Assembly: GCA_030425385.1 (NCBI GenBank)
Contig: JAUIAH010000020.1
Span: 62,001-126,000, forward strand
Origin: Verrucomicrobiia bacterium
GTDB taxonomy: Bacteria; Verrucomicrobiota; Verrucomicrobiia; Verrucomicrobiales; DEV007
Direction: 5' to 3'
DNA length: 64,000 nucleotides
Numbering within the stretch: the first letter of the stretch is position 1; every line of letters begins with the position of its first letter. The translations under genes were made by a program, and so were the position numbers. The notes beneath the pieces are model-generated. The model searched no databases, was not told where the DNA came from, and saw nothing but the letters and a program-made list of their open reading frames with translations. Shown piece after piece: positions 5,286 through 9,997 of the stretch.

Positions 5286-5397
5286 TGGTCTGTGCATACA
5301 AAGCATATACATAGGATATCCATATTCAACCACAAACAGCTCTGCCGTAATGTGACATTATTGCCAGCAAACATCTTGCACTAATCTAATCCATCTT

Positions 5398-5737
5398 GAG
5401 GCGCCATCGCCGCTGTTCTACTCAGACGATCCCCTTCCTTTCACCATTGCCCCAGCCCCTTTCGGGTGGCTCATTGGGCATCATGACTCCTGATCGCGAT
5501 TGTCGGCCAGTGGCGGCTGAGCTGTATTTCCTACCCGTGCACACCCGGATGCCCCTGAAGTTTGGGGCGGAGACGGTCGAGTATGTCACCTGTGCGCGGT
5601 GTCGGATCACGGTGGAAGGCCGGGATGGGCGGCGAGCTTCTGGCTGGGGCGAGACGCCGTTGAGTGTCACCTGGGTGTGGCCTAGTGATCGGCCTTACGA
5701 AGAACGGCATCAGGCCCTTCAAGAGTGCTGCCGCCGG
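5398..5737 (+). repeat. Direct repeat A, copy 2 (at the intact gene)
   Basis: This is the matching copy of 3112-3456, continuous with the complete enolase-family gene that starts at 5483. It includes about 85 bp of leader, so both copies probably carry the same promoter or translation signals. Confidence 0.93.
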
Positions 5738-6862
5738 TTGGCCGCCCACTGGCCCACCCTCGATTTCTGGGGGCATCCGATGGAAATTGGCCACCATTTC
5801 ATTGAGAAACAGCTCCCCAGTTTCCCCTTGCCGGGCATGCCTTGGCTGGCGGCGCTCGTCTGCAATTCTCTCTTCGACATCGCCCTCCACGACGCCTATG
5901 GCCACCTTCATGGGGTGGACATCTACGAGACCTACCAGCGAGAGTGGATGAACCACGATCTCAGCGCGTATCTCTCGCCTGCCGAGGACACGGCCGTCTC
6001 TTTCAAAGGATTGTATCCGAGCGATTTCTTCCAGCCGCACGCGCACCCGAATGCCCTTCCCGCCTGGCATCTGGTTGGCGGACTCGATCCCCTCACCCAG
6101 AGCGACCTGACCGGGAACGAACCCGAGGATGGGTATCCGGTCTTGTTAGGCGATTGGATGGAACGCGACGGCCTTACCTGTCTCAAGATCAAGTTGCGTG
6201 GCAATGACTACGCGTGGGATTACGATCGCATTGTGGCCACAGGCAACATCGCGCTCGATCGGGGCGGCACCTGGCTGACGACGGATTTCAACTGCATGGT
6301 CACGGACCCGGCCTATGTCACGCGTTTGTTAGACCAACTTCGCGATGAACATCCGCGGCTATACGGGATGCTTCTCTACGTCGAGCAACCGTTTCCCTAC
6401 GAACTCTCCGATCACCCCATCGATGTGCATAGTGTCAGTGCTCGCAAGCCGCTCTTTCTGGATGAAAGCGCGCATGACTGGAAAGAAATCCGTCACGGCC
6501 GCGCGCTCGGATGGACCGGCGTGGCCCTCAAGACCTGCAAGACGCAAACGGGAGCTCTGCTCAGCGCCTGCTGGGCGCGCGCGCACGGCATGACTCTCAT
6601 GGTGCAAGATCTCACCAATCCCATGCTTGCACAGATCCCTCATGTGCGCCTGGCTGCTCAGGTGGGCACGATCATGGGCGTGGAAACCAATGGCATGCAA
6701 TTCTATCCGGAAGCTTCCCTAGCAGAAGCGCACGTACACCCGGGTCTTTATCAGCGGCGTCACGGGTGTCTGGATCTGTCTTCTCTCCACGGACCCGGCT
6801 TTGGCTATCGCACCGACGCTATCGAAAGACAGCTTCCTCCGGCGGAACCCCTTGACGTCTGA
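5483..6862 (+). CDS. Enolase-superfamily (mandelate racemase/muconate lactonizing enzyme type) protein
   Basis: The ATG at 5483 is preferred; an upstream GTG/ATG-type extension adds 29 non-family residues. The 459-residue product has the N-terminal capping domain (residues 1-140) and a C-terminal barrel. Visible barrel motifs are TCLKIKLRGND (the KxK catalytic-lysine strand, about residue 235), TDFNC (first metal Asp and Asn), LLYVEQPFPYE (second metal-ligand Glu) and LFLDESAHDW (third acidic ligand), followed by VALKTCKTQTG (a further conserved Lys). The family abstracts a proton alpha to a carboxylate: dehydratases, racemases and epimerases of sugar acids or dipeptides. Length and motifs look complete. 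The sugar operon on the opposite strand points to a sugar acid, but the substrate cannot be read from sequence. A selenoprotein gene follows 43 bp later on the same strand. Confidence 0.88.
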   Translation: MTPDRDCRPVAAELYFLPVHTRMPLKFGAETVEYVTCARCRITVEGRDGRRASGWGETPLSVTWVWPSDRPYEERHQALQECCRRLAAHWPTLDFWGHPMEIGHHFIEKQLPSFPLPGMPWLAALVCNSLFDIALHDAYGHLHGVDIYETYQREWMNHDLSAYLSPAEDTAVSFKGLYPSDFFQPHAHPNALPAWHLVGGLDPLTQSDLTGNEPEDGYPVLLGDWMERDGLTCLKIKLRGNDYAWDYDRIVATGNIALDRGGTWLTTDFNCMVTDPAYVTRLLDQLRDEHPRLYGMLLYVEQPFPYELSDHPIDVHSVSARKPLFLDESAHDWKEIRHGRALGWTGVALKTCKTQTGALLSACWARAHGMTLMVQDLTNPMLAQIPHVRLAAQVGTIMGVETNGMQFYPEASLAEAHVHPGLYQRRHGCLDLSSLHGPGFGYRTDAIERQLPPAEPLDV

Positions 6863-6905
6863 GGGGTGCGAAGGCATTTCATTGCATTGTATTGCCTTCC
6901 TCACC

Positions 6906-7271
6906 ATGTCCAAGACCATTTCCCGATACTACCACCGCGGCGGCTGAACCTCCTGCAAGCGCGCGTCATCCTGGATGGATGACCACGAGGTCACGGTCGA
7001 TACGATTACCAATGCGACGAAAGAAACCATCACGGGCGATGAGGCCATGCCACTGGCGCTGAACGCCTCGACGATTCTCGCTGCCAAAGGCAAGAAGATC
7101 GTCCGTTTCACCGTCAAGCATGGGAACCTCGCTGATGACGCCACGGAGGACGATCTCCACAAGGCCATCGTGGGTCCCTCGGGAAAGCTGCGGGCGCCGA
7201 CCCTTTGGTCAGGAAGCACCCTCCTCGTCGGGTATCATCCTGACATGTATGCCGAAGCTCTGTTAGACTAG
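6906..7271 (+). CDS. Probable selenoprotein, ArsC/thioredoxin-like with UxxC motif (in-frame TGA = Sec14)
   Basis: An uninterrupted frame from the ATG at 6906 to the TAG at 7269-7271 contains one TGA at 6945-6947. Translating it as selenocysteine gives MSKTISRYYHRGG-U-TSC-KRASSWMDD, that is U14-T-S-C17, a Sec version of a CxxC redox centre after a beta-strand. The rest (NATKETITGDEAM, ILAAKGKKIVRF, GPSGKLRAPTLWSG, LLVGYHPDMYAEAL) matches a small ArsC/Spx-like thioredoxin-fold family for which (seleno)protein members are known. The cis-Pro equivalent is probably the Pro in RAPT. Total length is 121 residues. Ordinary gene callers would start at Met24 (6975) and lose the active site. A 7-bp hairpin starts 17 nt after the TGA. 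It needs selA, selB, selC and selD elsewhere in the genome. A nonsense mutation is less likely because the frame continues on both sides and TSC follows at the right spacing. Confidence 0.85.
6965..6983 (+). promoter_or_regulatory. Candidate bacterial SECIS hairpin
   Basis: Bases GTCATCC (6965-6971) and GGATGAC (6977-6983) form a perfect 7-bp stem with a 5-nt loop TGGAT. The hairpin lies inside the coding sequence; its loop begins 24 nt after the UGA. Bacterial SECIS elements are hairpins placed immediately downstream of the Sec UGA, usually with a G in the first positions of the apical loop, and this fits. SelB recognition itself cannot be judged by eye. Confidence 0.65.
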
Positions 7272-8285: not shown

Positions 8286-8485
8286 GGCAAGGAAAGTGGC
8301 AGATCGATCGGGGTCGCATGGCTCCTCATACTGAGGATCATGATCGGATCGTTTGGTGAGGGTGATGGTGGTCTGTTTCCCCTCGGAATGAGGGAATCGC
8401 CTATCAGATTCTCAAGGCTTCGGATGGGTTTCCGGCGGTCGAGCATTGAATGAACCCTAACGGATGGCCATTGGGTATTCGCCCC
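8286..8485. other. Spacer between permease gene and repeat array
   Basis: About 200 bp upstream of the permease gene. I see no gene here. It may hold the permease ribosome-binding site and a secondary promoter, but no clear consensus stood out. Confidence 0.5.
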
Positions 8486-8959
8486 ATTCTCGCGACCTTT
8501 CAGGCCGCTATTCTCGACTCGCAGATTCCCAAGGCTAAAGCCTTGGGCTAGGTTCTCGCGTCCTTTCAGGCCGCCTTTCTCGACTCGCAGATTCCCAAGG
8601 CTGAAGCCTTGGGCTGGGTTCTCGCGTCCTTTCAGGCCGCTATTCTCGACTCGCAGATTCCCAAGGCTGAAGCCTTGGGACTGGTTCGCCCTTCCTTTCA
8701 GGCCCCTATTCTCGACTGGCGGATTCTCAAGGCTGAAGCCTTGGGACTGGTTCGCCCGTCCTTTCAGGCCGCACTTGGTGATTACCGATATCCCAGGACG
8801 TGGATTCGTCAGATGCGCTAGGCGGCTGCCTTGCGATTTGGGAATGGGCCTATGAAGCGCGAAACGCTGGGGCTGAAGGCCCTGGAGAACAAAGCCCAAG
8901 GCTTCAGCCTTGGGAACCCGATAGGGACGTAGACATGCGGCCTGAAGGGTCGCGAGAAT
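8486..8959. repeat. Hairpin repeat array 1, bounded by terminal inverted repeats
   Basis: The array starts with a 23-nt end beginning ATTCTCGCGACCTTTCAGG (8486-8508) and finishes with its near-exact reverse complement (8937-8959). Between them the CAGGCC landmark recurs at 8501, 8567, 8633, 8699 and 8765, an exact 66-bp period. Each unit carries the hairpin CCCAAGGCTGAAGCCTTGGG or its TAAA-loop form (8-bp stem, 4-nt loop). A distinct segment of about 185 bp closes the array and contains one hairpin in opposite orientation near 8892. These are REP-like elements mobilised by the neighbouring Y1 transposase. A minus-strand reading frame runs through the array (22-residue period) but is probably not a gene. 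Confidence 0.9.
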
Positions 8960-8966
8960 GGTGCGT

Positions 8967-9419
8967 TCAGTCCCAGACATAACGTTCATCAAAGTCGATG
9001 TGATATTTGGTGAGAAATGCTCGGAATTCTTCTTGAAAGCTCTTCTTGCGATGGTGCTCGGCTTGATTGCGGATGTATCGCTGCACGTCCTCCACATGAG
9101 AAGCACTCACAGAGAACGCCCCATATCCCCCTTGCCATGCGAAGGCATGCAATTCCGGGAAGACGCTCTTCAGCCATTTGGATGACTCTCCCTTAATCGT
9201 TCCCAGGAACGTTGCTAGTGCCAGATTCTTCGAAAGCTTTACTAACAAATGGACGTGATCGGCCACACCGCCCACCTCCACGGCGCGAGATTCCTGACCC
9301 TCACAGGCCTTCGCCAAGTATGGGTAGAGCCGCTCCTGCACAGGCGCCGTCAACCAAGGGTATCGGCCCTTTGTGCTAAAGATCACGTGCAGGTAGTTTT
9401 GTGAGAGCGATTGCGGCAT
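8967..9419 (-). CDS. REP-associated tyrosine transposase (Y1, IS200/IS605-like TnpA)
   Basis: The 150-residue product opens MPQSLSQNYLHVIFSTKGR, as expected for this family. It has the HUH metal-binding motif in VADHVHLLV (His55, His57) and the catalytic tyrosine in VQRYIRNQAEHH (Tyr115). Length matches single-domain Y1 transposases. The enzyme nicks single-stranded DNA at hairpins and forms a 5'-phosphotyrosine intermediate. The flanking GCCTTGGG hairpins are the obvious substrates. The gene appears intact and is on the operon's coding strand. Confidence 0.93.
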   Translation of the reverse strand: MPQSLSQNYLHVIFSTKGRYPWLTAPVQERLYPYLAKACEGQESRAVEVGGVADHVHLLVKLSKNLALATFLGTIKGESSKWLKSVFPELHAFAWQGGYGAFSVSASHVEDVQRYIRNQAEHHRKKSFQEEFRAFLTKYHIDFDERYVWD

Positions 9420-9440
9420 AATCCTTCAGATTTGGGAGCG

Positions 9441-9977
9441 ATTCTCGCGACCTTTCAGGCCGCCATTCATGATCTCCGATATCCCAAGGCTAAAGCCTTG
9501 GGCTAGGTTCTCGCGTCCTTTCAGGCCGCTTTTAGATTTCCCAAGGCTAAAGCCTTGGGCTAGGTTCTCGCGTCCTTTCAGGCCGCTATTCATGATCTCC
9601 GATTTCCCAAGGCTGAAGCCTTGGGCTGCTTTCTCGCGTCCTTTCAGGCCGCACTTGGGCTCTGCCAGACAACCAAGGCTGAAGCCTTGGGCTGGGCTCT
9701 CTCTCTCGCGTCCTTTCAGGCCGCTATACTCGACTAGCGGACTCGCAAGGCTGAAGCCTTGGGACTGGTTCTCGCGTCCTTTCAGGCCGCTAGTGGTGAT
9801 TACCGATATCCCGGAACGTAGATTCGTCGGATGCGCTAGGCGGATGCCTTGGGATTTGGGAATGGACCCATGAAGCGCGAAACGCTGGGGCTGAAGGCCC
9901 CGGAGAACAAAGCCCAAGGCTTCAGCCTTGGGAATCCGATAGGGACATAGGCATGCGGCCTGAAGGGTCGCGAGAAT
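9441..9977. repeat. Hairpin repeat array 2, bounded by terminal inverted repeats
   Basis: The same architecture as array 1: 23-nt ends at 9441-9463 and, inverted, at 9955-9977. The CAGGCC landmarks lie at 9456, 9522, 9579, 9645, 9717 and 9783, giving periods 66, 57, 66, 72 and 66, all multiples of three. Hairpins of the CCAAGGCTGAAGCCTTGG type occur near 9483, 9540, 9607, 9672 and 9749, with an inverted one near 9912. The last 185 bp or so are a close copy of the end of array 1. Confidence 0.9.
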
Positions 9978-9997
9978 GGTGCGCATTGACATGTCCG

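Follow-up and report, generated by a model that had tools for sequence, protein, structure and literature searches.

A selenoprotein gene hidden behind an in-frame TGA

Positions 6906–7271 (forward strand) of the window, the 64,000-nt stretch of Verrucomicrobiia bacterium DNA analyzed here, almost certainly hold a selenocysteine-decoded ArsC/Spx-like selenoprotein gene, judging from its family match, its conserved TGA codon, and the selenocysteine (Sec) machinery of the genome. The same three lines of evidence uphold the proposal of the first-pass annotation, made from the letters alone, that a selenoprotein with a UxxC redox center lay concealed here. The frame opens with an ATG at 6906, closes with a TAG at 7269–7271, and is free of other stops besides a single TGA at 6945–6947 (forward strand), which was read as U to give one 121-residue protein: MSKTISRYYHRGG from the ATG, then the TGA-encoded U at position 14, and then TSCKRASSWMDDHEV... 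The TGA thus falls within GG-U-TSC, as originally described, and supplies the first residue of a U-T-S-C redox motif, the last residue of which, Cys17, is encoded at 6954–6956 (forward strand). No Shine-Dalgarno-like sequence was evident upstream of the ATG at 6906. A standard ORF finder run on the window returned only 6975–7271 (forward strand; 98 aa), a shorter frame that starts at Met24 and lacks the active site, exactly the loss that had been foreseen for standard annotation. The locus is therefore an example of a gene cut at its active site by standard annotation, as the Sec codon resembles a stop.

Family assignment

With the TGA read as Cys, the full-length protein matched the NCBIfam model NF041106 (ArsC_rel_Se_1, “ArsC family (seleno)protein”) with an E value of 8.8e-31 and 106.7 bits, over the curated cut-off of 85, whereas the fragment starting at Met24 scored 76.1 bits, under that cut-off. 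The protein shares with NF041106 the UxxC motif, with Cys homologs in the same column, and the exchange of Sec and Cys at that position; it differs in being a member from a Verrucomicrobiota genus, on a distinct and fully supported branch described below. The Pfam ArsC model PF03960 was not reached (20.6 bits versus a gathering cut-off of 24), nor were the Spx models NF009885 (27.2 versus 152 bits) and TIGR01617 (Spx/MgsR; 26.3 versus 75 bits). The window protein belongs to the ArsC superfamily as a divergent relative, and the earlier assignment to an ArsC/thioredoxin-like family was borne out by the NF041106 match, the alignment with Spx, and the fold matches.

The selenoprotein family itself is already known, and NF041106 is in the literature: it is cataloged as “Arsenate reductase-like protein” with the motif UxxC in a 2026 review (PMC13188914), a protein of that name and motif was placed under COG1393 in an earlier review (PMC9312934), and ArsC-like bacterial selenoproteins date back to 2006–2008 (PMC1794560, PMC2398784). 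The GOS “Arsenate reductase 2” (cd03032, UxxC) and “ArsC-like” selenoproteins (PMC2398784, PMC1794560) are likewise described as ArsC-like in fold and as carrying UxxC or Sec. What is new is that a single Verrucomicrobiota genus has the family, apparently alone among the sampled members of the phylum, which extends the range of NF041106. The arsenate reductase label is a name given by homology only; no ars genes were present among the scanned neighbors.

Predicted fold and function

The AlphaFold2 model (pLDDT 88.7, pTM 0.84) placed a strand at residues 7–10, followed by U14 immediately ahead of a helix at 15–26. The best PDB matches by both sequence and fold were Spx/YffB proteins (TIGR01617; PDB 6ghb, 1z3e, and 1rw1), with Foldseek TM-scores of only about 0.5. 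These proteins lack Sec and have CxxC where the window protein has UxxC; UTSC aligned with CTSC, the redox switch of Spx, and the conserved R96-A97-P98 aligned with L-R-R-P of Spx.

In the favored reading, the UGA at codon 14 would be decoded as selenocysteine by the SelA, SelB, SelD, and tRNA-Sec of the genome, with a hairpin 17 nt downstream directing Sec insertion, to yield a 121-residue thioredoxin-fold protein (fold predicted) of the ArsC/Spx superfamily. Sec14 and Cys17 would lie where the first helix begins, at the place of the CxxC switch in Spx, and would most likely form a reversible selenenylsulfide. The protein could then be a small oxidoreductase acting on thiols/disulfides (or oxyanions), a role that we consider probable, with redox chemistry and substrate both putative; candidate activities concern protein disulfides, low-molecular disulfides, oxyanions, or Spx-like signaling.

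The last of these corresponds to an alternative in which the protein is a Spx-type RNA polymerase-binding redox regulator rather than an oxidoreductase, and UxxC serves as a faster peroxide switch. Among solved structures, Spx proteins come closest in both sequence and fold, and TIGR01617 does match weakly; however, the score against NF009885 is far under the Spx cut-off (27 versus 152 bits), and the Spx/YffB-type proteins of the phylum group in a clade of their own with full support. Other genomes of the phylum gave weak NF041106 matches (E values of 1e-3 to 1e-7, no internal stop), which look like such Spx/YffB-like paralogs and were rejected as members; five of them, placed in the tree, formed the separate clade. 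An oxidoreductase is preferred because these paralogs of the phylum group apart, and the regulator is considered unlikely.

Conservation and distribution

The three remaining genomes of the genus each have the gene, in every case with a single TGA (four of four with the window), and encode proteins 58–64% identical to the window protein and with start codons at matching places. RYYHRGG-U-TSC is invariant in all four genus members, and the protein is conserved on both sides of the TGA. Beyond the genus, no match over the cut-off came from any further genome among the 75 of the taxonomic family or the 388 sampled from the phylum. The same TGA, again with the protein conserved on both sides, was present in locus L071, in a genome of another phylum, where the family occurs in 82 of 392 genomes, most of these having one TGA and others TGC or TGT at the same codon. 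We infer that the phylum of L071 differs from that of the window from the frequency of the family (82/392 versus 1/388) and from the non-overlapping genome lists. Homologs extend upstream of Met24 and have Sec or Cys at position 14; homologs lacking both features had been named beforehand as grounds for rejection. Within the other phylum, Cys and Sec forms interleave in one well-supported clade (the Sec form L096 beside the Cys form L094, then L084 with Cys, then L087 with Sec), a pattern that would reflect recent exchange between Sec and Cys.

Searches of genome contigs with the single window protein gave no match, and a search with the four-member alignment recovered the three congeners and one new locus. 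A plasmid search gave no match, and a phage search gave weak matches only (26–28% identity).

This distribution bears on the alternative that the gene is an ordinary truncated gene or pseudogene, in which 6945 is a true stop and translation begins at Met24 (6975). ORF finders do return exactly 6975–7271; however, the same TGA stands in four species of the genus with no other disruption, the region upstream of it is conserved as protein, and Met24 lies inside the predicted helix 15–26, such that the shorter product would lack the active site together with strand 1 and the greater part of helix 1. Truncation is thus regarded as very improbable.

Selenocysteine machinery

The genome (8.0 Mb, 95.5% complete) was examined for selA, selB, selD, and a Sec tRNA, the absence of which had been named beforehand as grounds for discarding the selenoprotein reading, and all four were found: SelA at 400.8 bits, SelB at 283.4 bits (cut-off 242), SelD at 361 bits, and tRNA-Sec at 65.1 bits (cut-off 47), the last also called by ARAGORN as tRNA-SeC with anticodon TCA. 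These genes sit on different contigs, and no Sec operon was seen; SelA is present in all three congeners. We infer that Sec is inserted in the cell. The alternative that UGA encodes a standard amino acid, through a code change or Trp/Cys readthrough, accounts for a frame that runs on past the TGA but has a negligible chance of being correct, given that the Sec machinery is complete, that TGA is a real stop in the group (at 6860–6862 in the enolase-superfamily gene, and in the congener gene L052), and that the TGA-less homologs read here have Cys at the position, never Trp.

The selD gene (L048, contig C23, 120876–121799, minus strand) also encodes a selenoprotein, its one in-frame TGA lying in the context KTCG-U-AAK.

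SECIS-like hairpin

The perfect 7-bp hairpin reported initially, 17 nt past the TGA, was located at 6965–6983 (forward strand) as GTCATCC-TGGAT-GGATGAC, with a 5-nt loop. In the bSECIS model, a small apical loop with a G within its first two positions lies 16–37 nt after the UGA (PMC13188914); here, the apical loop lies 24 nt after the TGA and the loop, UGGAU, has G at position 2, in agreement with that model in both loop and spacing. No Rfam family, and no SECIS family among them, matched over 6900–7060. When identical limits on loop and spacing were applied to every TGA in the window, 6.9% were followed by a stem of at least 7 bp, and the hairpin by itself is therefore weak evidence; the case is made by conservation.

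The stems of the five closest sequences, from the four genus members and L071, are GTCATCC/GGATGAC, GTCGTCC/GGACGAT, GTCCTCC/GGAGGAA (twice), and GTCTTCC/GGAAGAC. One pair takes all four Watson-Crick forms across them (A-U, G-C, C-G, and U-A), and 94.3% of cells in the five-sequence stem alignment are paired, versus 23–66% in slid controls; no other pair covaries across all five, and two of the sequences lack the outermost pair. Changes on the 5′ side fall at third positions of a Ser codon and those on the 3′ side at third positions of Asp/Glu codons, and random synonymous choice for this peptide gave a stem of at least 6 bp in ∼8% of cases per sequence. In more distant Sec members, a hairpin at a similar distance often folds. 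Four-way covariation at one pair, much of it via synonymous codons, is a small but clear illustration of a bacterial SECIS element under selection.

Phylogeny and origin

Phylogenetic analysis grouped the four genus members with L071 in a clade of 100/100 support among sequences of the other phylum, and because of this grouping, horizontal transfer of the gene between phyla is suggested. Whether a selenoprotein gene reached one Verrucomicrobiota genus from another phylum, with both UGA and SECIS hairpin preserved, and was kept there as Sec rather than Cys, we judge to be evenly balanced. L071 may instead be a mis-binned contig.

Genomic neighborhood

The gene had been described as directly following an enolase-superfamily gene, and an MR_MLE/enolase-superfamily protein is indeed encoded upstream (5396–6862), but the congeners do not share this neighbor: one has MlrC/M81, penicillin-binding protein, and UvrC genes, and the other two have PIG-L and 3-keto-disaccharide hydrolase genes. 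There is therefore no conserved operon, and a functional tie to the enolase-superfamily gene was dropped. The downstream gene, on the opposite strand, encodes a BPD_transp_2 ABC permease.

Farther along the window, over 8397–9986, palindromes close to CCCAAGGCTGAAGCCTTGGG, at least 11 in number and many at 66-nt spacing, stand on either side of an IS200/Y1_Tnp-like transposase gene (8967–9419, minus strand) in a REP/RAYT-like arrangement. The single Rfam match of the window, the “Acido-Lenti-1” RNA at 9606–9651, is one of these repeat copies, and the Rfam “Acido-Lenti-1” sRNA may thus be a REP element.
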